From: Acholoe squamosa
Taxonomy: Eukaryota > Annelida > Polychaeta > Phyllodocida > Polynoidae
Assembly: GCA_949317995.1 (NCBI GenBank)
Contig: OX439035.1
Coordinates: forward strand, 80,353,959-80,417,958
DNA: 64,000 nt
Direction: 5' to 3'
In this document: piece by piece, positions 21,281 through 58,320 of the stretch
Layout of the letters: every line of letters begins with the position of its first letter
Position numbering within the stretch: position 1 is the first letter of the stretch
Notes under the pieces: generated by a model
The model's input: only the letters and a program-made list of their open reading frames with translations
Told to the model about the DNA's origin: nothing
Databases searched by the model: none
Translations under genes and position numbers: made by a program

Positions 21281-24085
<2,805 letters not shown>

Positions 24086-27200: not shown

Positions 27201-27593
27201 AGTAGGTAGGTCTTAGAGTTAAGATATCAAAGACCATCCCCACATAAGACTAGGGACCCAGTTTTTATTGGGGGCTTGGGAAACTACTCTGAAAGTTCCA
27301 CCACCACAACACCAGTGCCACCGCTTGCCATTGCTCCTTTTAGCGATGGTTCCGTCTAATGCCTCTGGAGTTCAGACAGAGGGGAGTTAGAACCAGTGTC
27401 AGGATTTCTAATCACGCCTATATTATGCCCACAGCGGCCCTTGTGCCTCTGAACATCAAAGCCAAGGTGCCTGTTGCCCTGTGTTGTAGGTTTGCATTTC
27501 TCACACCTAAAAAGGTGCGACCTCTTTGAGATGTTCCTTAGTCACAGCAATTGAGGTTTGCAACACCTTTTGTGTAAAGGGTAGTGTTATAGG
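24230..27593. other. Non-coding DNA up to the Gypsy element
   Basis: AT-rich, no gene recognised. A short segment with ATATT...CGCCCACA.CGGCCC..TGCCTCTG occurs twice (about 26655-26700 and 27420-27460), a weak dispersed duplication. Confidence 0.45.
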
Positions 27594-27733
27594 TGTGGTG
27601 GTCCCGCGTCGTCTTCGAGGTACCTTCGTGGTCCTCGTGGGCGACGTCGAGAGCACCTCTATTACCCGACGCCTGGGGGCGCTGGAGTCCAGCGCCACGT
27701 CACCACTTGGTCACGTGGCCCTCGACTCCGGTG

Positions 27734-27740
27734 TATATAA
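27734..27740 (+). promoter_or_regulatory. LTR TATA box
   Basis: TATATAA, preceded about 20 bp upstream by GGTCACGTGGCCC. In a Gypsy LTR this is the expected promoter of the genomic RNA. The same box recurs in the 3' LTR at 40213-40219. Confidence 0.75.
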
Positions 27741-27901
27741 GGCCGTTGTACGGCCTTCCTCAGGGTCAGTCCAGCCCCGACTGACCATTGTGAGCAATGG
27801 TCGGCGGCTGCCCGGCTACCATATTCTAATACTCCTCTGTGCTACTGCACAGAGGGGGTTCATGTGGAATATTAACTCTAGACACTAGAAGGCCTAGTGT
27901 C
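27739..27901 (+). other. Stem-loop series in the LTR R/U5 region
   Basis: Perfect short stems in a row: 27739-27757 (7 bp), 27765-27785 (7 bp), 27783-27802 (8 bp, loop TGAG), 27834-27855 (9 bp, loop TACT) and 27881-27901 (8 bp). The second and third overlap by 3 bases, so they could be alternatives. The third has the hexaloop GTGAGC when drawn with one less pair, identical to one hairpin of the internal chain near 36.3 kb. Confidence 0.6.
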
Positions 27902-27976
27902 GAACCTGCAATAGAGTTTAAACTCTGCCACCTGTAACTGTGATCGAGAACGGCTGATGCCTATGTGTTATTAGAC

Positions 27977-27982
27977 AATAAA
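27977..27982 (+). terminator. LTR polyadenylation signal
   Basis: AATAAA about 240 bp downstream of the TATA box, in the position expected for R/U5 processing. The copy in the 3' LTR is at 40456-40461. Confidence 0.6.
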
Positions 27983-28062
27983 GTTTTAACTGGAACCTGA
28001 ATAGTTGTTCTTCGTTGTTTATCGAAAGATTCGATATAACATCGAGGGGTAGAACGCTACAC

Positions 28063-28077
28063 TGGTGCCGTGACCAG
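28063..28077 (+). promoter_or_regulatory. Primer-binding site, probably tRNA-His
   Basis: TGGTGCCGTGACCAG begins one base after the 5' LTR. Its first 12 bases are complementary to the 3' end of animal tRNA-His (which ends ...GTCACGGCACCA). The identification of the tRNA rests on remembered tRNA sequence. Confidence 0.7.
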
Positions 28078-28121
28078 TTGTTAACTTTAGTCCGCATAGG
28101 TACTGCGAGCTTAAGTTCAAC

Positions 28122-30890
28122 ATGCAGGGTCACTTGGATGAAGGTGATGACCCCAATCATCAACATCAAGTGACTACAGGCCCGTTAGTGGATATGAATG
28201 ATCCACTAATTGGTGGTGGTTTGAACCACACCCTGATATTAGGCCCATCGTCTGACCCGTTGGGCCTGTATCAAAGGAGCCGGCTACTCAATTGGCGAGT
28301 ATCGACTCAACTCTCTCCGGCGGCTGAGAACTTCTTGAGGACACAGAGTTTGTCCTATGTAGAAAAATCAGCCTCGCCCGTGGGAACTCCAATGGGCCTT
28401 GGCAGTTGGTCCTTCGAGGGTCCCTCGCCCGTGTCGATACAAGGAAGTATTGACAGTGGCAGGGGGCTCAACGAGGAGTTGCTACAAGAGCAGCAACGCC
28501 AACTGCGCCAGGGTCGCCAACAGTTGGATGCTCTCGCGAGTAACACCATGAAAGCTCAGGAGAAGAGTACAGAAATAGAGCTGAAATTGGAACAGCTTAG
28601 GCAGCAGGCGTTAGAGGCTTCGAACAAGACTCAGATCGCAAATAGAGAACTTACTGATCTTCAGGAGAAGGTCAAGCAGCTCTCTAGCGAAAAGGAGTCC
28701 TTGCTTGCAACGAAGTCAGAGATCGAGCGTAGTCGGTTGACAGCAATGGATTGTCAATCGCTAAAAGCAAAGATCGATCGCCTTGCTACAAGCCGCCGAG
28801 AATGTGTCGAGAGAGCTCGAAACGATTTTTGGGATGCCCAGCACGAGCAGACGTCCCTTAAACATAAGTTGAAACTACAAGAAGTAGAAAAGACTATGTT
28901 GGAGGAACAACTGCAAGAGTTGTGGCATAAGTTGAACCAACAATCAGCCGAGCATACTGAAGAAGTAGCTGAGCACCTAACGGCTTATGAAAAGCAGGTG
29001 AAACAGCTACGTCAGGAACGGGAGTCGTTACTCTGTCAGATGCAAGCTGACGAGGATGCTCGAGCCAGGGACGAGGCAGAAATGCGTCGTCGCTGTGAGG
29101 AACGAATCGAACACGCAAACAAAATGGCGGAATATCAGGTCTTAATGGAACAAAAAGCGAGGCATGAGGCCGAGCTTAATTCCTTGAAGTCTGAATCCCT
29201 AGTAGCCCAGTCACTGAAAGATCAGAAGGATTCGGACACTTTGGGAGCCATACGTGGTGAAATCGATGAGCTCCGACGAGAGATATTGTCTCGCAGAAAG
29301 GCTGATGAAGCCAGGGTGAATAAAGAAGTTCGTGATGAACTCGCACTCGAAGAACGTCTGAAGGAGCAGACGGAATCGAAATTGCGTACCGCTAGACTTC
29401 GAGATAAGCAACAAAGTAGTGAATGCAGCACTACTAGAGTTGCTACTCAAGGGGATCTAGTCGAAAACCCTGACTACAGAGAGTGGCTTGACCATGCCAT
29501 GAAGGAGGCCAAGCAACTCTTTGCCATCAGCGAGCAACGAGATCTCTCGAAACCCGAACATGCCCGCCTGGAATTCCTAGTGTCGGAATTAAGACAGGCG
29601 GAACGTTCAAAACAGCAGGCGGAGATAGATAGAATGGTGGGAGCAATCGACGACATCTCGAAAGTGGATTCGAGGTCGCGCCGGACCCAACCAGTTCCTT
29701 CAATGCCGCGCACCGATGGTCTAAGTGAAGTGATCGGGCAGTTCTCGACCCCTATCACGACCCAACAACATGTTGATCCACCCAAATATAGGGATATCAG
29801 ATTCGAGGCTTCGCGGTTGAGTGATGCCGATTCTGGTAATCCCTGGGGGATGAATCACAGTCGTGCAGACACGACTATGAGAAACATGGGGATGGACCAT
29901 CAAATACCTAGAAGAGGCACAACATTCGCCCTTGATCAGGTCAGGAGATCAAGCAGAATGTTTGAAAATACCTCTATCGGGCATGAACCAGCCCGAACTA
30001 GGTCAGTCGAGTGCCCTCCATTTACATGGAAGGACGATTGGCTCCGTTGGTACCACGGATTCAATCACGTCCGTCGAGTAAATGTATGGACCTCGAGTAT
30101 GGCATTAGCTCAACTCCTCATGTTACTCCAGAATGGCCCTGCAGCTGATACTGTGTGGCTATGGGAGGAGCATGGAGATGGGACTTTGGAGGGACTGGTC
30201 GACATGGTAACGGAAGCCATGACTTCTAGCCTTCAAGACCCCATTGTTACAATGGAGAAGATACGCCAAGGCAAGAACGAAAGCATTAGAGCCTATGGCT
30301 TTGCTTTGAGACGTCTTGCCGGCGATGCCTATCCAGGTGTGGACTTCTCGGTTGAATGGCTCATAACCAAAGTCAACCAGTTGTTCATAGGAGGATTGTA
30401 TGACGTTGATTTACAACAAGACGTTCTTCGGGAGTGGCGTACTTACATGTCCCTAAAGGATCTCATGGACTTGGCAGACGAGTTGTTGCGGAAACGACAA
30501 CTCCTGCCGAAGTTGGTGAATCCTACCTCGACAAATGCATTGTCGGCGTTGGCCGACGCCGCTTTGGTTAAGGAAGGACAGGGCGAAGTCTCCTCATACT
30601 CGAAGCCCGGGGCGGGGAGTAAGACTAAGAAAGGTCAGAAATCCGCTGGTAAATCGAAAACACCAAACAAGGCCTCCAAACCCAAGGTACAGGAGCAGAC
30701 CTTCTCGCTGAGTCAATTGAAGAATTTACTCAGGGTTATCGAGGGAGGGGATGTCCCTGGTACTAGCTCGGAGAAGCCGAGTACCCCTCCGTCCGACGCC
30801 AAGTGTTGGAACTGCAAGAAGCAGGGGCATTTCGCACGAACTTGCCCCGAGCCGATTAAAGGACTACCACCTGACGCGACGGAAAACTGA
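28122..30890 (+). CDS. gag: Gag polyprotein of the Gypsy element
   Basis: 922 residues from the first ATG after the primer site. About residues 105-400 are a long Gln/Glu/Arg-rich coiled coil, unusual for Gypsy Gag, which normally starts with the capsid-like domain. A retrotransposon Gag/capsid region follows at about 625-790 (FTWKDDWLRWYHGF, MEKIRQGKNESIRAYGFALR). After a Lys/Ser-rich linker comes one CCHC zinc knuckle, CWNCKKQGHFARTC, near residue 895, which binds RNA. The stop (30888-30890) lies within a 16-base overlap with Pol in the -1 frame. Confidence 0.92.
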   Translation: MQGHLDEGDDPNHQHQVTTGPLVDMNDPLIGGGLNHTLILGPSSDPLGLYQRSRLLNWRVSTQLSPAAENFLRTQSLSYVEKSASPVGTPMGLGSWSFEGPSPVSIQGSIDSGRGLNEELLQEQQRQLRQGRQQLDALASNTMKAQEKSTEIELKLEQLRQQALEASNKTQIANRELTDLQEKVKQLSSEKESLLATKSEIERSRLTAMDCQSLKAKIDRLATSRRECVERARNDFWDAQHEQTSLKHKLKLQEVEKTMLEEQLQELWHKLNQQSAEHTEEVAEHLTAYEKQVKQLRQERESLLCQMQADEDARARDEAEMRRRCEERIEHANKMAEYQVLMEQKARHEAELNSLKSESLVAQSLKDQKDSDTLGAIRGEIDELRREILSRRKADEARVNKEVRDELALEERLKEQTESKLRTARLRDKQQSSECSTTRVATQGDLVENPDYREWLDHAMKEAKQLFAISEQRDLSKPEHARLEFLVSELRQAERSKQQAEIDRMVGAIDDISKVDSRSRRTQPVPSMPRTDGLSEVIGQFSTPITTQQHVDPPKYRDIRFEASRLSDADSGNPWGMNHSRADTTMRNMGMDHQIPRRGTTFALDQVRRSSRMFENTSIGHEPARTRSVECPPFTWKDDWLRWYHGFNHVRRVNVWTSSMALAQLLMLLQNGPAADTVWLWEEHGDGTLEGLVDMVTEAMTSSLQDPIVTMEKIRQGKNESIRAYGFALRRLAGDAYPGVDFSVEWLITKVNQLFIGGLYDVDLQQDVLREWRTYMSLKDLMDLADELLRKRQLLPKLVNPTSTNALSALADAALVKEGQGEVSSYSKPGAGSKTKKGQKSAGKSKTPNKASKPKVQEQTFSLSQLKNLLRVIEGGDVPGTSSEKPSTPPSDAKCWNCKKQGHFARTCPEPIKGLPPDATEN

Positions 30891-31090
30891 GGCGGGCGGC
30901 TCGACGTGGCAATCGAGCTGCCCGACCATCGAAAAGCCAAGGTATCAGCACCTCTGGCACTCCTGATCAGACGACAGTAGATTCGAGGGAACTAGGTAAG
31001 GTCCCGGTAGGGCCGTCCCAGCCCTTTACCACAGCGGCACCGGTTGATCACCGGTCGGGTTCCGAAGATGTCGGTGTAGAAAAAGCCTCA

Positions 31091-33868
31091 ATGGCCAAGG
31101 AACAGGGCGCTGGCAGCCCGAACTCCGAGGTCGAGGGTTCGACTGGATCGAAAGTGAAAGTCGACGCCGGGAGAGAAGCCCTGATGCGGCAGCTGGCCAG
31201 AGTCTGCGCAACAGAGCTTCCCTCAGATGATCCCTGTCTCTCTTTTCTGAAGAGGAGGGGGATCGATCTGAGTACTGACGTAGGGTTGAGAATGCTAGCA
31301 GGAACCGCCCCCTTGTCGGGGAAACGATGGTACCTGTCTGCAGAGATTCGAGGGCGTTCTCTGGACTTCCTGATAGATACTGGTGCCAGCCACACCATTG
31401 TCTCTCGAGAACTCGCGAAAACGTTAGTGGTGCCGTCAGATAATCTCTACGAGGGAATAACGGCGTGCACTGCGTCTGGAGCCGAAATGCGGACCTATGG
31501 TCGATTGGTTCTACCTCTTAAGGTCGCATCGACCCACTATGTGTTTAGCCCAATAGTGGCCGATGTGGCTGACGATGGCATTCTGGGGCTCGACTTCGCG
31601 GCATTATACGGTATGATCCTGAACCCAAGGACGGGTCAATTGGTCATGACCGAGCCGGTAGAAGAGCACCATCAGTGTAAACTGAAGAGAGTGTCATCGA
31701 TAGCCTCAGTAGCACAGACCACTAGGATACCTGCCAGACATCGGTGCGATGTCTTGGTAAAATCCGAAGGTCTGGAAAGAGACCGACAGGGCATAGTCGA
31801 ACCCGACCTGAACACTCTGAGATGTTTAGGGTTGGTTGGTGAGGCTGCCCTTGTCAGCAATGTTCGTCGAACAGTGTTTCCCGTCTGTAATCCACTGAAT
31901 CGAGACATTGTCCTGGAGAAAGGCCAGGTGGTCGGTACTATACAGTATGCTGACAGAAACGGTGAACTCTCGTCACCGGAGGTAGGATCCGTGATGATGC
32001 GTCTCGAGCAAGAAGCTGCAGACATCGAGACGGCAGAAATCGCGAGCACCCACACGGGGGAGCTCCCTACCTGGCTGTTAGACATGTATGGCGACACCCA
32101 CCTGACCCAGCCAGAGGAAAGACTGAAGCTGTCCGCCTTACTACGTAAGCATGTGGATGTCTTTAAATCCCCAGATGAGCCGTTAGGGCGCACCGATCGA
32201 TGTCTGCATAACATCGACACGGGTGACGCACAACCTATCCGAGTCCCTTATAGAAGGATTCCGCTCAGCAAGAAGGCTGCGGCGGATGAACAACTTAAGG
32301 AGATGTTGGATACGGGGGTGGTTAGGCCAAGTACTAGTCCCTGGTCCAGTCCCGTCCAGATGGTGACGAAGAAGGATGGGACCATGAGATTCTGCGTCGA
32401 TTATCGATGTCTGAATGGAGTGACTAAGAAAAATGCTTACCCCCTCCCGCGCATCGACGAATCCTTGGATGCCCTAGGAGGAAACAAGTGGTTTAGTTGT
32501 CTCGATCTCCAATCTGGATATTGGCAGATCGGGATGAATCCCGACGACGTCGAGAAAACCGCTTTTTCCTACCAGAGGGGGCTCTACGAGTTCGATCGCA
32601 TGGCGTTTGGTTTGTGTAACGCCCCCGCCACATTCGAGCGAATGATGGAGGAGATGTTGAGAGGTTTGCTAGGTAAAAGTTGCCTGGTTTACCTCGATGA
32701 TATCATCGTCTTCGGCAAAACGACGGATGAAGCAATGGCGAATCTGGCAGAAGTCTTCAACAGGATTCGGGCATGGGGACTGAAGTTGAAACCTAAAAAA
32801 TGTCAACTTTTTAGGACTTCAGTCGAGTACCTGGGCCGAATCGTGTCTGAACAGGGTATAGAAGCCAACCCGGGGAAAATTAGCGATGTAATGACTTGGG
32901 CTAGGCCCACTACAGTGAAGGAAATCCGATCCTTCATTGGTTTTTGTTCCTACTACCGAGAGTTCATCCCGGGGTTCGCGGAACTCGTGAGTCCTTTGCA
33001 GGACTTAGTGATCCAAAAACCTAAAGGTAGTAGAGGTCGTTACGAGGCATTCGCGTGGACGGAGAAAGCCGAACATGCTTTTGTCGAGTTAAAACGAAGT
33101 TTCAGGGAGACACCTGTACTTCGATTCCCCACACCCGACGGTCGTTTTATCTTGGACACTGACGCTAGCAACACAGCGATCGGGGCTGTTCTATCCCAGG
33201 TGCAGGATGGAATGGAGGTCCCGATCTCATTTGCCAGCAACACTCTAAGTAAAACACAACGAAACTACTGCACTACCAAAAGGGAACTGTTGGCAGTTGT
33301 CGTGTACACCAGGAAGTTTAGGCACTACCTTTATGGTGGTAACTTCACTATCCGCACCGATCATTCGTCTTTGAAATGGCTCCTAAATTTCAAAGAGGCT
33401 GAGGGAATGATGGGTAGGTGGCTGGCCCACCTTTCGGAGTTCGGTCTCGAAAACTCTAAGATCGAACATCGAAGTGGGGCCAAGCATCTAAACGCCGATG
33501 GCCTTAGTCGTATCCCTGTGCGGCTATGCCAGAGGTCGGATTGCACAGACTGCGGCAGTCATAATGCTGTTTTGGCAGCTGTAAGTGGTTTAGTAGGCAG
33601 CCGGGTGGGTGTTGCATTTTGGTCTCTCGATGAACTCATTGATGCTCAGAAAGCGGACGCTGACATCAAACGAGTTGCTGAATGGCTAGTTAAGGGGGCT
33701 AAACCCACTAGGCCTGATGTATCGATCGAGAGCGCCGAGGTACGGAAATTAGTAGGGCAATGGCCTCTACTAACCTTCCGTGAAGGCTTGTTGTGTCGCT
33801 GGAAAGTCGAGGCGGGTCGAGCTAGGCGCACGATTCAAGTAGTTGTACCACGCCAACTGAGGGGGTGA
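31091..33868 (+). CDS. pol: Pol of the Gypsy element: protease, reverse transcriptase, RNase H
   Basis: 925 residues from the first ATG, but the frame is open from 30875, overlapping the end of gag in the -1 frame. Translation by frameshifting from Gag is therefore likelier than initiation at 31091. Aspartic protease: LIDTGASHTIV, Asp near residue 96. Reverse transcriptase: FCVDYRCLN, LQSGYWQI, FGLCNAPATF and active-site YLDD near 535. RNase H: DTDASNTAIG near 690, then RTDHSSLKWLL. The frame ends at a TGA just inside the zinc-binding start of integrase, where a G run coincides with a change of frame. Confidence 0.93.
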   Translation: MAKEQGAGSPNSEVEGSTGSKVKVDAGREALMRQLARVCATELPSDDPCLSFLKRRGIDLSTDVGLRMLAGTAPLSGKRWYLSAEIRGRSLDFLIDTGASHTIVSRELAKTLVVPSDNLYEGITACTASGAEMRTYGRLVLPLKVASTHYVFSPIVADVADDGILGLDFAALYGMILNPRTGQLVMTEPVEEHHQCKLKRVSSIASVAQTTRIPARHRCDVLVKSEGLERDRQGIVEPDLNTLRCLGLVGEAALVSNVRRTVFPVCNPLNRDIVLEKGQVVGTIQYADRNGELSSPEVGSVMMRLEQEAADIETAEIASTHTGELPTWLLDMYGDTHLTQPEERLKLSALLRKHVDVFKSPDEPLGRTDRCLHNIDTGDAQPIRVPYRRIPLSKKAAADEQLKEMLDTGVVRPSTSPWSSPVQMVTKKDGTMRFCVDYRCLNGVTKKNAYPLPRIDESLDALGGNKWFSCLDLQSGYWQIGMNPDDVEKTAFSYQRGLYEFDRMAFGLCNAPATFERMMEEMLRGLLGKSCLVYLDDIIVFGKTTDEAMANLAEVFNRIRAWGLKLKPKKCQLFRTSVEYLGRIVSEQGIEANPGKISDVMTWARPTTVKEIRSFIGFCSYYREFIPGFAELVSPLQDLVIQKPKGSRGRYEAFAWTEKAEHAFVELKRSFRETPVLRFPTPDGRFILDTDASNTAIGAVLSQVQDGMEVPISFASNTLSKTQRNYCTTKRELLAVVVYTRKFRHYLYGGNFTIRTDHSSLKWLLNFKEAEGMMGRWLAHLSEFGLENSKIEHRSGAKHLNADGLSRIPVRLCQRSDCTDCGSHNAVLAAVSGLVGSRVGVAFWSLDELIDAQKADADIKRVAEWLVKGAKPTRPDVSIESAEVRKLVGQWPLLTFREGLLCRWKVEAGRARRTIQVVVPRQLRG

Positions 33869-33935
33869 GGTACTCTCCTTTTGCCACGGACACCGAACAG
33901 CGGCACATTTTGGTCGTAAACGAACGCTCGAAAAA

Positions 33936-35588
33936 GTGAAAAGGAGATATTACTGGCCCGGGATGGGAAAGGACATAGGTCGTTGGGTTCGACACTGTCC
34001 TACCTGTTGCCTGGTAAAGCCCGGCGAGGGCATGGGTAAGTCTCCTCTGCACCAAGAGTTGTTCGGGGTGAGATTCGGGAGGATAGCTATGGATATCATC
34101 TCGGGATTTGCACCCACGCCAAACAAGAATACTTGCATGTTAGTAATCCAGGATTACTTCACCAAGTATGTACGCGCTATTCCCCTACCAAATCACACGG
34201 CAGAGACCTGTGCAGAGGCCTTCGTGAACGAATGGGTTTTGACCTTTGGAGTCCCGTTGCTTCTGCATTCCGACCAAGGTCGAGAGTTTGAGTCTCGACT
34301 CTTCTCTGAGATGTGTGAATATTTGACGATTGTAAAACAGAGAACCAATCCATACAGACCACAGAGTGATGGTCAGGTGGAAAGGTTCAATAGAACGTTG
34401 ATTCAGAGTCTGACTATGTTGGTAGACAAACATATGGACGACTGGGATGAACAGGCTAAATATGTGGTGTCCGCATATAACAGCTCTGAGCACAGTTCTA
34501 CTGGATGCAGTCCAAATATGATGGTATTCGGGGAAGAAATTCTCATGCCAGCGGATGTGATTTTCGGCTCAATCGAGAACCCACTCGAAGTCCCTTGTTC
34601 CGTCACCTTCGTGGAACAACTTCGTGACCGATTGAGGGAGAGTTATAGCATGGTAAGGGAAAACTTAGGTAAATCTGCGGAACGCCAGAAGGTCGGGTAT
34701 GACTATGGGCTAAAGCAGAGAAGATACTCAGTTGGTGAACAGGTGGTGAGGTACCACACCCCCCAGGCAGCTATGAAGCTTGCCCCCAACTGGGATGGGC
34801 CGTTCGTTGTAGATTCTGTCCTCTCTGAGTCGACATTATTACTTCGATCATCCCGCGGACGGTTGCAAAAGAGCAATGTTGATAGAGTGCGCCGGTGGTT
34901 GGGCGTAGAACTATCACAAACTGTCGAGTTGTTGCAACCACAACTTGATGATGATTCACCTTCTCGTAAGGCTACGAAAAGGGCTAAGTCTGTTTCTGGA
35001 CAGGTCGAAATAGAGGTCGAAAGGTCGCGGCCGGAAGTCCAGTCTAAAGAACAAACTAAGCAGGGTCATCGAAAACGACAGCAAAAAGCTCGAAAACTGA
35101 GCGAGGTGGAGGTGTTGGATGCCAGTAAACCATCAAAGCGGCGCCGTGGTCGACCGGCCCGTCGAGATAAGTCGAAAACATCTAAACAGCCTTTGAAGGG
35201 ATGTCGGAAGCCCGACCCCCCCTCGAAGGTGCGAACGACTGAACAAACTTCACATCGAAACGTTTCGATTGAAGTGAAAGATCAGTCACTCCAGTCCGGA
35301 CCTATGACTCGAGCGAGGCTTAAGCGCCAAGGCTCATCAAAGGAACGGTCAGCGAGTGTCGAGGATGAAAGGAAACCCAGAGCAAACACTCTGGCTCCTG
35401 CATCCACACCGTCACAAGTGATGGGGGGCAGACGCCGACGGAAACGGGTTAATAGCCCGGTCGGCCCGGCCACATCAAAGGACGGCGGGCTAGGAGGGGG
35501 TGATAGTAACCCGCCCCGAGGCTCAACACTCGTTCCTGTAGTAAAGGTTAAAATCAGGAAAAGCCCTAGATTAAACCCTACTCAGTAA
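33936..35588 (+). CDS. int: Integrase of the Gypsy element
   Basis: The frame is open from 33861; the first ATG-like start is within the integrase, so this is not an independent gene but the end of Pol. The remaining zinc-binding Cys pair is CPTC. The catalytic D,D-35-E triad is Asp53 (AMDII), Asp113 (HSDQGREF) and Glu149 (GQVERFN). A GPY/F-like module follows (PNWDGPFVV). The last 200 residues are Lys/Arg/Ser-rich and disordered-looking. No chromodomain was recognised. The HHCC zinc finger is split by the frame change at 33861-33868. Confidence 0.9.
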   Translation: MKRRYYWPGMGKDIGRWVRHCPTCCLVKPGEGMGKSPLHQELFGVRFGRIAMDIISGFAPTPNKNTCMLVIQDYFTKYVRAIPLPNHTAETCAEAFVNEWVLTFGVPLLLHSDQGREFESRLFSEMCEYLTIVKQRTNPYRPQSDGQVERFNRTLIQSLTMLVDKHMDDWDEQAKYVVSAYNSSEHSSTGCSPNMMVFGEEILMPADVIFGSIENPLEVPCSVTFVEQLRDRLRESYSMVRENLGKSAERQKVGYDYGLKQRRYSVGEQVVRYHTPQAAMKLAPNWDGPFVVDSVLSESTLLLRSSRGRLQKSNVDRVRRWLGVELSQTVELLQPQLDDDSPSRKATKRAKSVSGQVEIEVERSRPEVQSKEQTKQGHRKRQQKARKLSEVEVLDASKPSKRRRGRPARRDKSKTSKQPLKGCRKPDPPSKVRTTEQTSHRNVSIEVKDQSLQSGPMTRARLKRQGSSKERSASVEDERKPRANTLAPASTPSQVMGGRRRRKRVNSPVGPATSKDGGLGGGDSNPPRGSTLVPVVKVKIRKSPRLNPTQ

Positions 35589-36077
35589 TCGATGTTTCGC
35601 ACAATACTAAGCAGCAGCTTTACTAACCTGTGTTTTTAATGAGACTTTAAAATAACGGGTGCCGTTCTTGAGTAAATCTGTCTGTGGACGTGAAGCCGAC
35701 GGTGAATAAAAAATTACACAACGAGAAGTCGTACGATTGCCTCTTAGTTTGAGACAAACTGACACTGGAAACATGGAAATTTGGAGCCTCTGATTTTATT
35801 GACTGTGAGGACGGGTTCCCAGCATAGGCTGGTGGATACTGCCCGAAGGGTAGATCCATATTGGAACCATTTTTTTTTTAATCCCGGTAGTCTGATGAAG
35901 GAGGGGGTGCCCAGATTAATCCATGTTAATAGTGTTGGAACCCATAGACCGCATAGGAAATAACGGCATATGCAAACATTGCGACTGGAGAAGCAGAGCG
36001 TGACGGTGAGGGGAGAGTGAGTCGTTCTATTTTTTTTGAGCAGTACCTTATTTGGTCATGGCGTGATGCGCTGTGGA
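35589..36077 (+). other. Spacer between integrase and the internal promoter
   Basis: Non-coding; base composition is closer to the AT-rich host than the flanking element genes. No feature recognised apart from short T runs. Confidence 0.5.
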
Positions 36078-36149
36078 CCAATAGGGTTCGCCCTCCTCGG
36101 TCACGTAGCCCCTTCCTCCAATCAGAGACGTGCGCCACAGGGATAAAAG
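36078..36149 (+). promoter_or_regulatory. Internal promoter-like block upstream of the extra ORF
   Basis: Two CCAAT boxes (36078-36082 and 36118-36122), GGTCACGTAGCCC between them, and a TATA-like GATAAAAG at 36142-36149. The LTR carries GGTCACGTGGCCC followed by TATATAAGGCCG; here the TATA-like box is also followed by GCCG. The spacing is that of a pol II promoter and it lies about 390 bp before the extra ORF start. Function is inferred. Confidence 0.55.
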
Positions 36150-36210
36150 GCCGCGTCGCCCACCACGGAGGTCACATCTGCGCCCTTCTCATGAGAGTCG
36201 GACGCAGATA

Positions 36211-36487
36211 AGCTGGACTAAGCCTAGCTTATTCCAGCTGGTACGCTCCGTCTGGGGACTCCCTACCTGAGTGTAGGAGGTCTCCCCTGCCTAGTGTCGA
36301 GGGACACGACCTGTGTGAGCGCAGGTTCGTGTTCTCTCGAGACTCCAGTCTTCGGTCCCTCGAGCCGCCTGAGTGCGGTTCGAGGTACATCGAAGGCACC
36401 TTCGAGGCTTCGACCCGCCAGAGTGCGGATCGAAAAACCTCGAAGATCCTCTTCGACGTCTCGTCCCGTCTGAGAACGGTTCGAGAC
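36211..36487 (+). other. Chain of about nine small hairpins in the leader of the extra ORF
   Basis: Type A hairpins have a hexaloop close to CTGAGT: 36262-36277, 36305-36331, 36358-36385 (11 pairs), 36409-36434 and 36458-36487. Their stems differ but stay paired (for example CCTAC/GTAGG, CCGC/GCGG, CCGT/ACGG), which is compensatory change. Between them lie type B hairpins of the form TCGAAG-loop-CTTCGA: 36338-36354 (variant), 36390-36405 and 36440-36456. A larger stem lies at 36211-36239. No protein frame explains the pattern. Confidence 0.7.
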
Positions 36488-36533
36488 CCGGAGTCTTCTC
36501 TCCCTGGTGGAACCCGGCAGTTCAGGAAGAACC

Positions 36534-39506
36534 ATGGGGTCCTCGTCCGACGAGCAGTCAGGGTACAGCTCTTCGGCGAGCCACAAGTCGCAGAAGAAGA
36601 AGAAGAAGTCCAAGAGGACCAGACCCGAGCAAGAGCTCGAGTCTACCTCGGCTAAGAGTGCAGCCCTTCTGAAGCAGATCGAGGATGCACAGAAAGCCTT
36701 GGCTGAGTCCCAGGAGCGGGAGAAGGAGCTCCGCCGGAAGGCGAAAGAGGCAGCTAAGCAGCAGAAGCGCGACTTGAAGGTCGCAGCTGCTGCCGCCTCG
36801 AGAGACTCTTCTCCCGATGAGATGGAGGTCGACGAGCCGTCGACACCTGCTCCATCGAAAAGTGCTACCCCTTCAGGTTCTAAGGGCAAGAAGCCGACTG
36901 AATCAAAGGCATCCAAGGGCACCTTGAAGGATTTCAAGATCCCTAGGGTGCCCAAGAAGGAAAGTAGCAAAAAGGAGTCCGCAGCCAAGAAGGCTCCAGC
37001 CCGGGAGAGGAGTAGCGAGTCTACTGCTCCACCGGAACCTGGAACTGAGCCGTCGGAGGTCGATGCCGGTGCCGTGGAGAGCACCGTATCCTCACCCCCA
37101 GACACGGCCAGGGCTGTCGACGAGTGGAAGCGACTGTCAGCGATCACTGCCAAACGACGTGCTGAGTACGTTGATGACAGGCCACTGACAAAGCTTCAGG
37201 ACTACCGCAAGAATGGTCAAGTGGTACTCCCAAGTCTCGTCGGAAAGGATGGTAGTGACGACGAGGAATGGTATTCGGACGACAGTCATGCCATTGACTG
37301 GTATGTCTCGATGATCGAGAATATCACGAATGCCTCAGACTCGTCGGGGGTGTCGCTGCCCGAGCGACAGCGGATTGGGTTCGCATGGCGCATCTTCAAT
37401 CCAGGGCAGCAGTGTGCTTTCGAGAACTGCACACGTAAGGGGTTCCCCCCTCGCGTATATGCGACGGACGGCAGGTATGCTCGACACTTGGTTGAAGAGC
37501 ATCGAGCCATCCGTCCGCAGTTCGGTTGTGTTAAGGTGGAAAAGACCATTCCATGTTACCAGGACCCGGATGACCCGACCTCTCCTCCTTTCGTGACTTC
37601 ACGAAGGGGCTTGATGGCGCGTCATCTCAAGTCGTACAAGCAGCCCCATAAGTACAACGCCGAGGGCGCTATCCAACTAGTGGAGACTCTGGTTGGAAAG
37701 TGTGAACGGAATGAGAAGACAGGCGCGCCGACGAGACACTGGATGCGGATGGCCCCCGCACCCCCGTCTACGAAGCGCCTGTATATCAGACCGGAGCTGA
37801 TGCCCGCTTTCTACGGTGCCTACCCCGAGTTCAGGGTAGAGCAACGGAAGAAGCGGGAGGCCAGTCGTCCTTGGGACCCAGGACCTACAGCCTCTACGAG
37901 TGGGAACAAGAGGCCCCACTCTACAGAGGCTGCTAAGTCTGCCGGTTCGACTGAACCTAAGAAGCCTAAGCCGCAGGCTGCTCCCTCGAAGCCCGAAAAG
38001 GCATCGAAAGCCGCCCCGGCCCCGGCTCCTAAAAAGTCGAAGAGTGCTTCGACCGGTTCGGCCAAACCAAGCACTAGTGGTGCTAAAACTGGAGGCAAGA
38101 CAGTGGAAACCCGGAGTGGTCGTGATCGGCAACCCAAGGTGACCACCAACTCGTCTCCCCCTGTCAAACCCCCTGCAGCGGCAGAGGGCAGCACCCCAGC
38201 TGCCACGCCGCGTGTCCACGTGGGAGGCGCGACACTGACCTCGGCAGCAGGAGCTAGCTTCTCCAACGTCGTGACAGGCGCCGACACCCCGACAGCAACC
38301 TTGCGTTGGGAGTTGGCACAGCCTGCATACGGCGATGGCGTCGAATGTGGGGTCCCGAAGACGTTCGTGGAACGTTGTAAGGGACTTCTACAGATGACAG
38401 GCAGCCCTGCTATCGACAAGTTCGGTGAGGCATTCCGTGAGGAAGCGAGTGCCTACTTGTTCGGCCTGTTTGATAGAACAAACATGGCCATCCGTAACGA
38501 GCTCCTTCCGGCTCTTAGGAATGAGGCGCGCCAGACCGTTCAGATGGAGATGGACTCTCGTCTGACCGACGTCCGAACGCGTCTCAATAACTTTGAGGCA
38601 CAGGCCCAATATGATATTACCAAGAGGGACAGTATCATAGAAGGCTGGGAGGAAATCGACCGCGAATTCTTTAGAGTCTTCGGGGTCCAACTCTCGGAAT
38701 GGATGAGGGACAAACACCATGGCGTCCGAACCCTGAAGCCCATTCGAACCGAGCCCTCTCGCGAAGCGCAGAGGTACCTCGTCGAGGGTGGAGTGATTCC
38801 TGACGTCAGGACGCTGGCGGCTCAGACGAATCCTTTGAGAGAGTTGTCTCCAAAGATTGACAGTCTGAGCTCGGCTATGACGATGTTGGGCCGAGAGCAG
38901 GTGGTGCAGGACAAGCCTGACACCCCGGGTAGGTCTCTCGGTGCCTCCGTCTACCCGCCAGCAGCCCCGTCTTCCTCCTCGGTTCCCTTGATAACCCTCT
39001 CGGGAACCACCGAGCCTACGCCGCCACCGGTCCAGAGAGTGGTGTCACCGAGGATCCATCCGGATCTTCAGGGCATCACTCCCCTGGCCCCGGCGAACGT
39101 AGCCGTCTGTCCGGACCCGTCGGCTTCCGCCCAAGCAGTAGAACCTGCCGAGGTGGAACAGTCGATGGATATAGACGGGGACGTCGACGTCGTCGATCAT
39201 TCTCCAAAGCCTCCCCCTGACCAGGGAGACAAGGACGACCGTGAAGGTCAGGAGAGCGACGACGACGACGGAAGCGACTCAGCAGACTCGGCCGTTCTCC
39301 ACTCAGATGCTGAGGGGGACTCCCGGGATGCACCCGAGACCTCTAACGAGGCTTGGAGTACGACAATGGACCGTGAGGTCCCATTGCCGGAGTCGCCGAC
39401 GTTTTCGGGCCAGCTAGCCGCCAGCGCTCCACATGGAGAGGAGCGCACTGACGGAGAGCAGGCCGAAATCGACGCCGCTACAGGGTCCATCTCGGAGGAT
39501 CAGTAG
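36534..39506 (+). CDS. Extra 990-residue protein in the env position, function unknown
   Basis: Starts at ACCATGGGG, a strong start context; an in-frame GTG nine codons earlier is less likely. N terminus Ser/Lys-rich, then a coiled coil (about 45-90), a basic/acidic low-complexity stretch, and a folded-looking region with two Cys/His clusters: CAFENC...ARHLVEEH (from residue 294) and CYQDP...ARHLKSYKQPH (from 341), resembling zinc fingers. A Pro/Ala/Ser-rich linker follows, then a helical domain at about 605-745 (LFGLFDRTNMAIRNELLPAL, WEEIDREFFRVFGVQLSEWM) and a long acidic tail. No signal peptide or membrane segment is seen, so it is not an envelope protein. Possibly a nucleic-acid-binding accessory or second Gag-like protein. 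The frame is fully open over 3 kb. Confidence 0.85.
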   Translation: MGSSSDEQSGYSSSASHKSQKKKKKSKRTRPEQELESTSAKSAALLKQIEDAQKALAESQEREKELRRKAKEAAKQQKRDLKVAAAAASRDSSPDEMEVDEPSTPAPSKSATPSGSKGKKPTESKASKGTLKDFKIPRVPKKESSKKESAAKKAPARERSSESTAPPEPGTEPSEVDAGAVESTVSSPPDTARAVDEWKRLSAITAKRRAEYVDDRPLTKLQDYRKNGQVVLPSLVGKDGSDDEEWYSDDSHAIDWYVSMIENITNASDSSGVSLPERQRIGFAWRIFNPGQQCAFENCTRKGFPPRVYATDGRYARHLVEEHRAIRPQFGCVKVEKTIPCYQDPDDPTSPPFVTSRRGLMARHLKSYKQPHKYNAEGAIQLVETLVGKCERNEKTGAPTRHWMRMAPAPPSTKRLYIRPELMPAFYGAYPEFRVEQRKKREASRPWDPGPTASTSGNKRPHSTEAAKSAGSTEPKKPKPQAAPSKPEKASKAAPAPAPKKSKSASTGSAKPSTSGAKTGGKTVETRSGRDRQPKVTTNSSPPVKPPAAAEGSTPAATPRVHVGGATLTSAAGASFSNVVTGADTPTATLRWELAQPAYGDGVECGVPKTFVERCKGLLQMTGSPAIDKFGEAFREEASAYLFGLFDRTNMAIRNELLPALRNEARQTVQMEMDSRLTDVRTRLNNFEAQAQYDITKRDSIIEGWEEIDREFFRVFGVQLSEWMRDKHHGVRTLKPIRTEPSREAQRYLVEGGVIPDVRTLAAQTNPLRELSPKIDSLSSAMTMLGREQVVQDKPDTPGRSLGASVYPPAAPSSSSVPLITLSGTTEPTPPPVQRVVSPRIHPDLQGITPLAPANVAVCPDPSASAQAVEPAEVEQSMDIDGDVDVVDHSPKPPPDQGDKDDREGQESDDDDGSDSADSAVLHSDAEGDSRDAPETSNEAWSTTMDREVPLPESPTFSGQLAASAPHGEERTDGEQAEIDAATGSISEDQ

Positions 39507-40059
39507 TATGAAACTACTGCTCCTCCTCGTCAGCCTGGATCGCTGACATCGAACAGAACTCGTTCCCGGACGACGGTGTACCCTCCATGAGTGGGGGTAC
39601 CTTTCCTGTCCCCGGACCTCCCTGCGGAGCTGTGTGGATCCGACGCCACCCTGGTCTTAGGGCCCGGTGGTGCCACACATCCTCGGCCTCACGGTCGAAG
39701 GACCATCATAGTAGTATTGTACGCTATCGATGGGCTTCCTACGCTGGAAGGAGCTTCTCAACGAGACAGGGAGGAAACGACACGACCCCGGTTGCCATAC
39801 CCGGTCGTGCCTCCCTAGGATCGACCAGGAGCAGGTCGTGAAGCAGTGTTTCGACACTGGTCTCCTACGTTGGATGGAGCAACGCCTTATAATTTAACTG
39901 TGATAATAATTTTTTTTCTACAGTACAGTAGAAACTATATTTCTATATATTCCTCTACTGTTTCTGTCGACTATGTCGACGGATCCAGTAGTTCATATTA
40001 TTATCTAATTGTTTAGACTGATCCGGGATCTCTGAATTTTCAGAGACCTCGTTTCAGTC
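39507..40059 (+). other. 3' untranslated region of the Gypsy element
   Basis: Non-coding, with several short inverted repeats, e.g. TCTCTGAATTTTCAGAGA near 40029-40046 and a CTACAGTA/TACTGT-type pair near 39915-39960. Leads into the polypurine tract. Confidence 0.5.
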
Positions 40060-40072
40060 TAGTGGGGGGTGG
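40060..40072 (+). promoter_or_regulatory. Polypurine tract
   Basis: AGTGGGGGGTGG immediately before the 3' LTR, the expected plus-strand primer position. It is interrupted by T, as in some Gypsy elements. Confidence 0.6.
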
Positions 40073-40540
40073 TGTGGTGGTCCCGCGTCGTCTTCGAGGT
40101 ACCTTCGTGGTCCTCGTGGGCGACGTCGAGAGCACCTCTATTACCCGACGCCTGGGGGCGCTGGAGTCCAGCGCCACGTCACCACTTGGTCACGTGGCCC
40201 TCGACTCCGGTGTATATAAGGCCGTTGTACGGCCTTCCTCAGGGTCAGTCCAGCCCCGACTGACCATTGTGAGCAATGGTCGGCGGCTGCCCGGCTACCA
40301 TATTCTAATACTCCTCTGTGCTACTGCACAGAGGGGGTTCATGTGGAATATTAACTCTAGACACTAGAAGGCCTAGTGTCGAACCTGCAATAGAGTTCAA
40401 ACTCTGCCACCTGTAACTGTGATCGAGAACGGCTGATGCCTATGTGTTATTAGACAATAAAGTTTTAACTGGAACCTGAATAGTTGTTCTTCGTTGTTTA
40501 TCGAAAGATTCGATATAACATCGAGGGGTAGAACGCTACA
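40073..40540 (+). repeat. 3' LTR of the Gypsy element
   Basis: 468 bp, identical to 27594-28061 except for C at 40398. It ends CGCTACA and is followed by TAGTG. Confidence 0.95.
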
Positions 40541-41221: not shown

Positions 41222-43347
41222 CAAGTTTCAAGTTCAAGTTTTAACATTTTTATTTATTCTAGACACAACATAGAACGACTTCATCACAATAGTATGTTGA
41301 TCCGCTGGTATACATGGTCTAGAGGGTTTGGCATAAAAGTATGACCCCGACAGATTCATGTTATAATTCCATATAGCCTACAATATTATATAAACGATCT
41401 TTTATGCCTTCATGAATACACTAACTCTTTTGTACAACACCTTATGAAAACAAAGTAACATCTTATTGTCTAACATTGAGTAGTCTGTAACTAAAGCTTA
41501 TTTGACCCAATAAGTATTTATAATGGGGCCAATCTTTGGCACATATTATTATTAAACCAGCGTTGAGGCGGGCATACATTGTCCATAATTTCATAGAAAG
41601 GGAGGAAGATTCATACAATCATTCATTAATTCATGCTTTGTCTTTAACAACGGCAGTTTTTATAAGGTAACACCTCCTTACATCCTTCTTATTACCAGCT
41701 TATTTCTGAACACTTATTATATCATACCCACATATTAGTCTACATCAAGGTCCACATCAAGGTTGCCCCAAGGTCGATTACATTCACCATCATACCAGCA
41801 CATATAAAGAGTGCCAGAATAACCCTATCTATATACGTCAGAATCACTATAGGATTGGGTGAGACAGTATACTTCTTCCCTCATACAAAAACACCATTCT
41901 GTCAGTGTCCCAATGACTTGTGAAGTAGTCAGACAATCTTGCCTATATTTTCCCTTTAAAAAGATCTTTGTCTAGTATCCATCTAATATCCGGATTTAAA
42001 TTATTCCATTGTAGCTGGGCTTTGTGCGTTGGGTCATTATCCCTACCGGTAGTTATGGGCCTAGCTTGTGCCATTAAAGGAGCCCCACTATGTCTTGTAC
42101 CAATGCATGGCGCAGTATCTAATTGACCAAATCAGATGGTGGCAAGTTGTAAGCTGGAGATAAATCCTTCTCACGTTATTGTGGATTAACTTGGCCATGA
42201 CATACAGATCTTTTATTCTAGCATCCCTAGGATCATTGACCAAGAAACAACCTCTTATACCTGTGTTATACAGTACATGTAATTTTTTCAATGTTGCTGG
42301 AGAGTCCTGTAGTGAAAATTAGCCCAAAATCAAAATATGGGATAGCCATTGTCTTGAATACCAACAACACCATATCTTTGTTTATAAAAGACCTTATTTG
42401 TAACAACAACCAAAGCTTATGTTTTATAGAGGTCATCATTTTATCAACATGATCTTGTAATGTGAATTCAGAGTCAAGATGTATTCCTAAATATTTGTAC
42501 TGGTCAGCACTGTCAAGCCTGTCTTGTCCCAATTTCAGCTCAAGTTCTTCATCTACCTGAGGACTAACTAACCAGCATGATTTGAGACTTTCTAGCATTG
42601 ACCATCAATCCATTATCTTTACACCAGTCAAGTATATTATTTAAATCAATTTGCATGTCACGGGCCAGAATGTATGTGTTTGCCGCTTTATGTATTATTA
42701 AAGTATCATCAGCAAATAAATACAGAGATCCTTTAGTCTTCAAGTCTGTCATTGAATTAACATAAAAGATAAAAAGGAGAGGACCCAAGCTGGAACCCTG
42801 GGGTATCCCATACTGGACTCTCTTATATTCTGAGAGGGCACTATTAGCAAAAGTGCGCTGAAACCTATTATGTAAGTAGCTAGAGAACCAATCAATCACC
42901 CTTGGAGAGAAATTAAAAGCATATAACTTGTCCAGAAGGAGCTCGTGATTCAAAGAATCAAAGGCCTTTGTAAAGTCCAGAAAGGCAATGGCCATCTTAT
43001 CCTTATCTATTTGACCCTGATGTACTTCAGATAAAACTCTAAAGACTGTATCAAGGGTAGACCAGCATTTTCTAAACCCATTTTGGTAAGGTGTAAGTAG
43101 ATTGTTCATCTCTAAATGCCTTGTTACCTGTTCCTGAATAAATTTTTCCAGGCACAGGCAGTAGCGGGATAGGCCTGAACTCAGAGGGATCAGCAGCCGC
43201 AGGGACCTTGGGGACTGGGGTAATTGTAGCAAAGTGCCACTTGTCTGGAAAGACTTTCCAAACTACGTACAATTTTAGAACATGAGTAAATCAAGACTAA
43301 AAGTGCATCCTTCAACAGCCTAGCCGGGATTGAAGATATTCCAGAGG

Positions 43348-43350
<3 letters not shown>
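41222..43350 (-). mobile_element. Truncated, decayed non-LTR retrotransposon (CR1/L2/Jockey-like)
   Basis: A minus-strand LINE remnant: broken reverse transcriptase at 42088-43345, then about 850 bp of 3' sequence ending in a TTGAA-rich tail (41222-41245), where repeated TTCAAGTT words on the plus strand mark the likely 3' end. The 5' end stops at a (TA)n tract, within the RT region. Endonuclease and ORF1 are absent. Confidence 0.75.
42088..43345 (-). pseudogene. LINE reverse transcriptase pseudogene
   Basis: RT motifs in order on the minus strand: GISSIPARLLKDA, WHFATITPVPKV, AFLDFTKAFDSL, YGIPQGSSLGPLLF, active-site FADDT, and a thumb region QYKYLGIHLD. They are spread over at least four frames (43190-43345, 43072-43272, 42564-43232, 42266-42598, then 42088-42291), so several frameshifts have accumulated and no functional protein is possible. 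The motif set fits the CR1/L2/Jockey group of LINEs. Finer placement needs a tree. Confidence 0.85.

Positions 43351-43422
<72 letters not shown>
43351..43422. repeat. (TA)n microsatellite
   Basis: About 36 uninterrupted TA units, exactly at the truncated 5' end of the LINE fragment. Confidence 0.95.
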
Positions 43423-43425
<3 letters not shown>

Positions 43426-44313
43426 ATCCCATTAACCCACTGAGGGCTAGCATCAACTATAGTCCACACCATGGTAGGCCTAGCATCGACTATAGTTGAC
43501 ACTATGGTAGGCCTAGCGTTGACTATATTCGATTCCCATTACATAGGATTTGTATAGGAATTGAAAATAGGCTCGTCCTCTAGGAACTATACTTTTTTCA
43601 GAGGCCGTCCCCATAGTCAGGGGACCATTGTTGCTCTGTCCTTAAAGGGTTAACCTCTCTCTTTACAGAGGCATGAGCGACCTTGACAAATTCAAAAAGG
43701 GGGTATCAGGAGGGGGTATCTGAGGGGGAAGGGGTGAAGGTCAACAATATCATTAGCTAGTCACACCCCTATGTCGGCAAAAAAGTTGTTAATTAAAGTG
43801 GGAACCTCCTTTGATACTATGCTACACGGGGGGATTGTTTCTATGGATACTATAAGTATACTATACTCAATATTGACTATACTACGCCTCCTTTAAAAAG
43901 AATTAAAATGTCGAGCATGACCTTGAAATGAGTGTCTAGTTTTGTGTGATATTTCCATATTTAGTGCAATAGGCACTTTATAAAACACCGAGATACACCC
44001 AATAACGCAAAGATAGTACAATGAAGAAAGGATCAAAGGACACAAATGGAGCCTTTGGTACCAAGAATAGACCAGCATTTCTTTCTTAAAAATTATATCG
44101 AGACACCGCCTTTTATTTTCACAAATCAACAGGGCCGTCTGTATACAAATCAATAGGCCTTCATAAATAGATTTTAACACAACCCCGCCTAACTAGAAGC
44201 ATCTATACAGGTAGAACGCTGTGTATATAAACTCTTACACATTAAAGCAAAGGGTGACTATGCACATACCTGTAGACTTGGGTGAATGGTGCAAAAGGAT
44301 ATACATAGCTACG
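43423..44313. other. Non-coding DNA with a short tandem repeat
   Basis: 43443-43528 has two to three diverged copies of a unit with GGCCTAGCATCGACTATAG. The rest has no feature. Confidence 0.5.
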
Positions 44314-44525: not shown

Positions 44526-44849
44526 AAGATGAGATGATACCAGACATGTGTGCATCTCCACTGTGATCGGAAGCTGACAGAATCTGAGCGTCGCAAAGAC
44601 TATCTGTTGACTACAGTTACATCTGTAAATATATACCATACAAGATCACGCATGGCGAGATTTGTATTTATGAGATTGACCATTGCATTACCAATGATGT
44701 GTATTGTGAGTTAATAGTTGACCAAAGTTCTATTAGCCAATTGGTTTATTTTGATGAACATCTTTTGATAGTAGATATTGATCTTTGATATCATGATGAA
44801 TTGTTTTGTGAGTTAAAAGTACAGCAAAGCTGTAATAGCCGATTGGTTC

Positions 44850-45830
44850 ATTGCTGACAAATAGTGAGTAACTACTAATATATATTGACTAATTGCTGAC
44901 AGATTGTGACTAAGTACTGATATATATCGACTATTTGCTGATAAATAGTGACAAAGCACTGACATATATTGACTAATTGCTGACAAATTGTGAGTAAATA
45001 CTGACATATTGACTAATTGCTGACAGATAGTTAGTAATTACTAATATATATTGACTAATTGCTGACAAATAGTGAGCAATTACTAACATATATTGACTAA
45101 ATGCTGATAAAATGTAAGTAACTACTACCATGTATTGACTAATTGCAGACAAATAGTGAATAATTACTAACATATATTAACTAATTGCTGACAACTGTCC
45201 ATAGATACTGACATATTCTGACAAATATCAGTCAAGGCAGGATGCACAATTGAATCAATGGCTATTCCTCTGTTATATGTATATTGACTAATTACTGACA
45301 GATTGTGAGTAAATACTGACATGTATTGATAATTGCTGACATAGAGTGACTAAATACTGACGTATATTGACCAATTGCTGACAAATTGTGAGTAAATACT
45401 GATATATATATATTGAATAATTGCTGACAAATAGTGAGCAATTACTAACATATATTAACTAAATGCTGACAAATATTCCATAGATATTGACATATTTTTA
45501 CAAATACCAGTCAAGGCAGGATGCACAATTGAATCAATGGCTATTTCTGTTATATATTGACTAATTGCTGACAAATTGTGATTAAATACTGACATGTATT
45601 GATAATTGCTGACATAGAGTGACTAAATACTGATGTATATTGACTAATTGCTGACAAATAGTGAGCAATTACTAACATATATTGACTAAATACTGATAAA
45701 ATGTAAGTAACTACTACCATGTATTGATTGACTAATTGCAGACAAATAGTGAATACTGACATATTTCGACTAATTGCCAACAAATAGTAATTACTAACAT
45801 ATATTGATTAACCACTGACAAATAGTGAGT
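44850..45830. repeat. Diverged roughly 42-bp minisatellite, about 1 kb
   Basis: Many imperfect copies built from TATATTGACTAATTGCTGAC, AAATAGTGAGTAATTACTAA and variants. A higher-order duplication is marked by CAAGGCAGGATGCACAATTG at about 45235 and again at about 45515. The short open frames here only translate the repeat. Confidence 0.9.

Positions 45831-47540: not shown

Positions 47541-47542
<2 letters not shown>

Positions 47543-47622
<80 letters not shown>
47543..47622. repeat. (TA)n microsatellite
   Basis: About 40 TA units without interruption. Confidence 0.95.
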
Positions 47623-47625
<3 letters not shown>

Positions 47626-58201: not shown

Positions 58202-58320
58202 CTGTGCACGCGGGCTGCAAACAAATGAACAATCATTAATTTTCAGTTTCATCATGCCTCATTTATTTATAAGATACATGTAAGGCTACTACACCACTGG
58301 GGCCCCCATGCTATCATTTT

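Follow-up and report, generated by a model that had tools for sequence, protein, structure and literature searches.

Accessory genes and internal promoters in LTR elements

Foamy viruses drive their accessory genes from an internal promoter, and Cer1 of Caenorhabditis elegans is a Ty3/Gypsy element. In the part of the foamy virus literature consulted, transcription is described as starting both in the LTR and at the internal promoter (PMC7828637). The CERV protein of Cer1 is encoded by a spliced mRNA of five exons, the first three of which are in the gag frame, and the accessible sections of the same report give it no obvious homology outside nematodes (PMC10309623). A third point of comparison is the Sireviruses, for which an internal promoter has been suggested and not conclusively identified, according to excerpts of the source (PMC2829016). 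How extra genes are expressed in LTR elements that lack a recognizable env is poorly known, and two related families in the polychaete Acholoe squamosa offer a concrete, testable candidate for a promoter and a leader.

The window analyzed here is a stretch of 64,000 nucleotides of the A. squamosa genome (assembly GCA_949317995.1, contig OX439035.1, positions 80,353,959 to 80,417,958 of the forward strand), and all coordinates below are counted from its first letter. It contains a Ty3/Gypsy element with an additional gene after pol, preceded by a chain of hairpins that we interpret as the probable leader of a separate mRNA.

A Ty3/Gypsy element with an additional gene

The element, of the Ty3/Gypsy group (Metaviridae), occupies 27592-40540. 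LTRs flank gag and pol, and the pol domains follow the order protease, RT, RNase H, integrase.

27592-28061, plus strand: 5′ LTR, 470 bp, 99.8% identical to 40071-40540
28122-30890, plus strand: gag-like ORF with a zinc knuckle (zf-CCHC, PF00098)
31091-33868, plus strand: protease, RT and RNase H part of pol (Pfam)
33936-35588, plus strand: integrase part of pol (Pfam rve and Integrase_H2C2)
35708-35744, plus strand: conserved non-coding motif of 37 nt
36534-39506, plus strand: extra (accessory) ORF of 990 aa with two homologs, 36 and 35% identical
40071-40540, plus strand: 3′ LTR, from comparison of the LTR pair

The pol frame of the window copy is broken between the parts ending at 33868 and beginning at 33936; in the relatives P0003 and P0005 both parts lie in one protein. 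A search of the 1.48-Gb assembly (63 contigs) found at least 40 near-identical copies of the leader that precedes the accessory ORF (99-100% identity; 40 of 756 candidates scored), and this similarity indicates that the family of the window copy, called family 1 here, is young.

The LTR carries its own TATATAAG box. Downstream of this TATA box both LTRs contain a TGAG-loop hairpin with a 10-bp stem (27781-27804 and 40260-40283), which sits within a chain of other palindromes. When windows of 360 nt were ranked by a Watson-Crick palindrome score, LTR stretches came out on top, including sequence upstream of the LTR TATA box. Derivation of the leader from the LTR was considered and rejected, as the local alignment between the LTR and the inter-gene region was reached by 198 of 300 shuffles.

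The 37-nt motif lies about 120 nt past the pol stop, inside stretches that align with two relatives from the same genome, L031 and L032. These stretches align strongly between families, with none of 300 shuffles scoring as high. The motif is a candidate splice, poly(A) or reverse-transcription signal; in the window, an AATAAA overlaps its start.

The accessory ORF has no match in Pfam. By eye, its product has a basic N-terminus and two Cys/His clusters that resemble zinc fingers, and the structure prediction of the accessory domain (mean pLDDT 43) was too poor for use. Among 5.8 billion proteins, from which 7990 candidates were scored, two homologs were found, and a second search with the three-sequence alignment returned the same two. 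Scans of viral and of prokaryotic contigs, each with two peptide patterns, gave no confirmed relative of either the accessory protein or pol. The accessory homolog P0002 and the pol relative P0003 (78% identity) each come from a contig of 59,662 bases; presumably this is one contig, on which the two genes are neighbors. Polymorphisms common to at least two copies comprise 52 synonymous and 17 nonsynonymous changes, with 2.8 nonsynonymous opportunities for each synonymous one, and singletons comprise 74 synonymous changes, 76 nonsynonymous changes and three stops. The counts were made on 51 distinct copies (22-24 for the ORF's second half), part of which were found by their match to the ORF, so that intact ones are favored. 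The shared polymorphisms point to a conserved protein family whose sequence was apparently kept by selection while the element family spread.

Other features of the window lie outside this element. Overlapping ORFs on the minus strand at 7661-10428 carry domains of a reverse transcriptase and of a tyrosine recombinase (phage integrase family), which suggests a DIRS-like element. At 55469-58255, also on the minus strand, is an ORF of 928 aa without a Pfam match, with an internal 104-bp repeat at 57774-57985 and 106-bp repeats just upstream of it at 58348-58698. Long tandem arrays occupy 44842-45843 (shorter units) and 53482-55396 (units of about 380 bp).

A promoter-like block between pol and the accessory ORF

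A block of promoter-like motifs, which is new and absent from the earlier note on this sequence, precedes the hairpin chain.

36099-36108, plus strand: upstream promoter-like element GGTCACGTAG, 75 nt before the predicted start
36118-36125, plus strand: CCAAT box CCAATCAG, 56 nt before the predicted start
36142-36149, plus strand: TATA-like box GATAAAAG, an imperfect TATA, 32 nt before the predicted start
36172-36178, plus strand: Initiator-like TCACATC, with the predicted start at the A of 36174, from motif and spacing only

TCACATC resembles the Initiator consensus. The first hairpin begins 2 nt after the predicted start, which itself lies behind a CCAAT box and a TATA-like box, and the chain is therefore probably the 5′ UTR of a separate mRNA for the accessory ORF.

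The same block recurs in a second family. When the homolog P0001 was used as a query, two decayed relatives were found in the same genome (L031 and L032); the pol sequence upstream of L031 is 83% identical to that of the window across 342 integrase residues. Ahead of the accessory ORF, both relatives read GGTCAC, CCAATCAG and TATATAAG, followed by a leader of about 180 nt. A DNA search for this family 2 returned 21 matches, at 78-100% identity, from 19 candidates; 17 further pieces were cut from these. Promoter spacing was measured in 17 of 19 pieces, with the start set by motif at the A of CTAGTT. GGTCA stands 75-77 nt before this start in all 17 copies, CCAAT 55-56 nt before it in 16, and TATATAAG 33 nt before it in 15. 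Since the start sites of both families were chosen from motif and spacing, these distances are not independent of that choice.

The intervals between the boxes do not depend on the start. GGTCA and CCAAT are spaced by 19 nt in family 1 and by 19-21 nt in the 16 copies of family 2 that have both; the spacing of CCAAT and the TATA box is 25 nt in family 1, against 24 nt in L031. The order of GGTCA, CCAAT and TATA box is common to both families, and the promoter blocks by themselves align weakly between them (25 of 300 shuffles do as well). Judged from these motifs, an internal promoter between pol and the accessory ORF is likely.

The hairpin chain of family 1

The earlier note had described a chain of small hairpins at 36211-36487. 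The chain is borne out and is slightly longer, with seven consecutive hairpins at 36176-36493, between the pol stop (35588) and the accessory ORF.

36176-36209, plus strand: hairpin 1, apical loop GUGA in 29 of 30 copies and AUGA in the window copy
36211-36239, plus strand: hairpin 2, from the predicted fold
36254-36285, plus strand: hairpin 3, type A, loop CUGAGU (CTGAGT at 36267-36272)
36293-36344, plus strand: hairpin 4, type A, loop GUGAGC (GTGAGC at 36315-36320)
36348-36397, plus strand: hairpin 5, type A, loop CUGAGU (CTGAGT at 36369-36374), lower stem formed by the arms called type B
36400-36445, plus strand: hairpin 6, type A, loop CAGAGU (CAGAGT at 36419-36424), lower stem likewise formed by type B arms
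36451-36493, plus strand: hairpin 7, type A, loop CUGAGA (CTGAGA at 36470-36475)

The minimum free energy of 36165-36540 is -186.9 kcal/mol, compared with a mean of -142.6 for 100 dinucleotide shuffles, none of which was as low (z -6.75). For 36174-36533 z is -8.34, and -8.84 when the pair span is limited to 60. Strong folding is not unique to the leader: among 798 scanned windows of 160 nt it belongs to those with the lower z, and the LTRs and long palindromes elsewhere are lower still. The lowest z of the scan (-17) belongs to the window at 21281, and related near-perfect palindromes lie at 21281-21440, 43346-43429 and 47541-47624. What sets the leader apart from other strongly folding windows is its repeated loop. 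It holds four TGAG-loop hairpins with stems of at least 4 bp, as well as the CAGAGT variant; 1000 shuffles had a mean of 0.09 and a maximum of two.

The type A stems vary on both strands while pairing is mostly kept, as had been proposed, with five of nine pairs changed on both sides (a number reached by 2 of 500 shuffles). When the five hairpins are aligned around the loop, 88.4% of 43 cells are paired. None of 500 shuffles reached their covariation score, whereas 176 of 500 reached their number of pair types; the alignment consists of short pieces cut by hand around the loop and is biased towards pairing. Three of the units are 46-nt repeats, two of them 76% and 61% identical to the third. 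The separate type B hairpins of TCGAAG and CTTCGA, said to alternate with type A, had to be given up. Their pair probabilities are 0-0.01 and forcing them costs 6.3 kcal/mol; in the favored fold these arms form the lower stems of long hairpins.

Without a span limit, the minus strand of family 1 folds at -189.3 and the plus strand at -178.5 (z -9.32 and -8.34), and at a span of 60 the minus-strand z is -8.33 against -8.84 for the plus strand. As both strands fold nearly equally, family 1 provides no evidence on the strand. No match to 4227 Rfam families was found in the window at the curated score, and lowering the threshold to E 10 for 36050-36560 gave one match of 19.6 bits against a cut-off of 50. 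The iron-responsive element has a hexaloop of the form CAGWGH with a bulged C; as a candidate it was rejected, there being no Rfam match. A search of plasmids with the leader DNA was also negative.

Variation among copies of family 1

The earlier note had proposed other genomic copies as its test, with stems broken there without compensation as counter-evidence. No kept double change occurs in either of two sets of family-1 copies, 30 picked by leader match and 28 picked by ORF search, and some variants do break pairs, at 5 of 13 variable leader positions in the first set and 6 of 25 in the second. Five of the 13 positions are unpaired. In the 28-copy set, 13 of the 25 are unpaired under the global fold (116 of 360 positions unpaired overall) and 11 under the span-60 fold (106 of 360). 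Because many of the changes, here and in family 2 below, are private to single decayed copies, the lack of compensation neither proves nor refutes a selected structure; the copies of family 1 are, besides, too alike to allow a test of covariation.

No ATG occurs in the leader of 29 of 30 and of 26 of 27 full-length copies. In both sets the copy that departs from this is the one at the window's own locus, where an ATG at 36191 opens a short ORF of six codons; 29 of 30 copies read GTG there. An upstream ORF with ribosome shunting was dropped as an explanation for this reason, the sole leader ATG being private to one locus. The leader of family 2 lacks an ATG in 10 of the 13 copies tested. Upstream of the leader, the nearest ATG is at 36066 in family 1 and at 770 in L031. 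The chance that a shuffled leader has no ATG is 0.17 for one copy of family 1 and 0.03 for each of two copies of family 2.

A differently spelled chain in the sister family

The leaders of the two families cannot be aligned, since the scores obtained were reached by 109 and 75 of 300 shuffles. Folded locally, the family-2 leader nevertheless also forms successive hairpins, UUCG and CUUG being among their tetraloops. By eye, the UGAG loop is not common to these hairpins, which makes one conserved binding motif unlikely. At a span of at most 45, the plus strand has a lower z than the minus strand in all 13 copies tested (13 of 19 pieces, which also served for the ATG counts; mean -2.40 against -1.16), and four control stretches upstream in L031 have z values of 0.15 to 0.38. 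With unlimited span two copies show no plus-strand preference (z -1.38 plus and -1.49 minus in one, -2.87 and -3.08 in the other).

Sixteen of the 19 pieces were aligned (A5), leaving out L072 and L073, which resemble L074, and the short L078. Under the hairpin-chain structure 95.4% of the cells of these 16 rows pair; this structure combines the folds of two rows with the fold of the alignment itself, the rows being related, and an additional long-range helix from RNAalifold was left out. Covariation among the rows does not exceed that of shuffles, 393 of 500 reaching the score, and a kept double change occurs in 1 of 56 pairs. RNAalifold counts none of 46 pairs changed on both sides, with a slightly unfavorable covariation term.

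When columns with fewer than 12 letters are excluded, variants common to at least two rows occupy 11 of 112 paired columns against 18 of 54 unpaired ones (Fisher p 0.0004). Columns variable only through private changes run in the opposite direction, 33 of 112 paired and 8 of 54 unpaired (p 0.054). If the shared variants mostly predate insertion, paired positions would have been protected while the family was active and not afterwards. The shared one-sided changes comprise four to G-U and four to A-C, with no strand preference.

The proposal that the chain bears the signature of a selected RNA structure thus stands in part. Covariation among the repeated hairpins of one sequence speaks for it, as do the non-alignable chain that a sister family has in the corresponding position and the avoidance of paired columns by the variants shared among its copies; compensation between copies, absent in family 1 and at shuffle level in family 2, does not. 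That a differently spelled chain occupies the same place in this older family hints that the folded shape itself has been kept. Taken together, we lean towards selection acting on the hairpin-chain structure.

A proposed structured leader and its alternatives

The reading that we prefer, with a probability of roughly 42%, sees in the hairpin chain the structured 5′ UTR of an accessory mRNA with an internal start; the shape of the chain would be selected and would serve as a docking array. The starting points of this reading are features of the sequence itself: a hairpin chain in excess of chance, a conserved ORF and a sister family of the same layout. To these it adds a promoter predicted from motifs. 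An RNA polymerase II promoter between pol and the accessory ORF would start a separate accessory mRNA at 36174, and the chain would form its untranslated leader, selected for its shape as plus-strand RNA. The leader would then be present both in this mRNA and in the genomic RNA. The repeated UGAG-loop hairpins could serve as a multivalent array for an element-encoded protein, either the zinc-finger-like accessory protein or the nucleocapsid of Gag, and docking would adjust how strongly the accessory mRNA is translated or would collect RNA of the element in particles. We regard the docking role as doubtful; its protein partner and effect are ones that we infer. A point against the leader reading as such is that seven hairpins beginning 2 nt from the cap should hinder scanning ribosomes.

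An unlikely alternative is that the chain controls export or splicing of the unspliced genomic RNA, much as the Rev response element or the RNA target of CERV does, and that the accessory protein is its partner. On this view the accessory mRNA would arise by splicing, with the chain inside its intron. A large protein encoded after pol, with a basic N-terminus and Cys/His clusters, would suit this role, and the portion of the Cer1 report consulted describes a nuclear accessory protein that has a Cys-rich loop and is needed for export of genomic RNA (PMC10309623). A pyrimidine run at 36496-36504 with a CAG shortly before the ATG is a possible acceptor in family 1; by eye, however, family 2 lacks such a run followed by AG directly before its ATG, whereas it keeps the CCAAT/TATA block. 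The available account of CERV also places exons 1-3 of its mRNA in the gag frame, while the ORF described here has its own ATG.

We consider it quite unlikely that the chain acts as DNA, as palindromic sites for a dimeric regulator of the promoter, with RNA folding as a by-product. The near strand symmetry of family 1 would be expected of such sites, LTR stretches, including that upstream of the LTR TATA box, lead the palindrome ranking, and in the text available some Sireviruses carry palindromic repeats on the 5′ side of ENV and ahead of the LTR TATA box (PMC2829016). The stems change while pairing and loop stay, however, which is the opposite of a sequence-specific DNA site. Both chains lie downstream of the predicted start, and all 13 copies of family 2 prefer the plus strand at span 45, although not with unlimited span.

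It seems improbable that the hairpins are a mutational by-product, generated without selection by tandem duplication of a unit and by template switching, during reverse transcription or replication, that perfected inverted repeats. Three of the units are indeed tandem copies, and neither the near strand symmetry of family 1 nor the lack of a compensatory excess among copies would then be surprising; a different chain at the same place in a second family, with shared variants that avoid paired columns, argues against it. Finally, a packaging or dimerization signal for Gag in the genomic RNA, independent of the accessory gene, is highly improbable despite the TGAG-loop hairpin with its 10-bp stem downstream of the TATA box in both LTRs, since the chain is about 8 kb from the 5′ end and directly before another gene, and that of family 2 has, by eye, no TGAG loops.

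Extended further, the structured-leader reading would describe a Ty3/Gypsy lineage with a transcription unit in the env position, composed of a promoter, a hairpin-chain leader and a zinc-finger-like protein. The leader would be a docking array that is rewritten fast while its architecture is conserved, and the accessory protein would read it and control both its own mRNA and the genomic RNA in a two-promoter circuit. This larger picture is speculative and, in our estimate, unlikely to hold as a whole. If it is true, a leader that keeps a hairpin chain through total turnover of its sequence would clearly exemplify RNA conservation at the level of architecture in a retrotransposon. Such a two-promoter circuit in Metaviridae was not described in the literature searched, which comprised titles and abstract openings and few subscription papers.

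Comparison with known systems

The Retand elements, a Gypsy lineage, are described in the part of their literature seen as carrying both tandem repeats and extra ORFs in the stretch from pol to the 3′ LTR, which is the position of the chain and the accessory ORF. They differ in being plant elements with mainly antisense ORFs, and the main text available on them uses neither "hairpin" nor "secondary structure". Sireviruses, as portrayed in the excerpts consulted, likewise have palindromes near the gene in the env position and near the LTR TATA box. They are plant Ty1/copia elements, however, and their motifs mostly share a CGG-CCG core and are discussed there as transcriptional elements, whereas in A. 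squamosa the loops are kept, the stems vary and the chain is downstream of the predicted start. The pol domains of this element are in Gypsy order, and three of the five type A hairpins read CCG and then CGG, which sets them outside the Sirevirus motif.

CERV, set beside the accessory ORF by its description in the sections consulted, is also a large, fast-diverging accessory protein with a candidate NLS and a Cys-rich region. The same sections give it a spliced mRNA, whereas the ORF described here has its own ATG and a promoter-like block. From what the available foamy virus text describes, the likeness lies in a second promoter inside the provirus besides that of the LTR, which in A. squamosa is putative and based on motifs. 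Here, in contrast to the foamy viruses, the block lies between pol and the 990-aa ORF, no env is recognized, and a long hairpin chain follows the predicted start.
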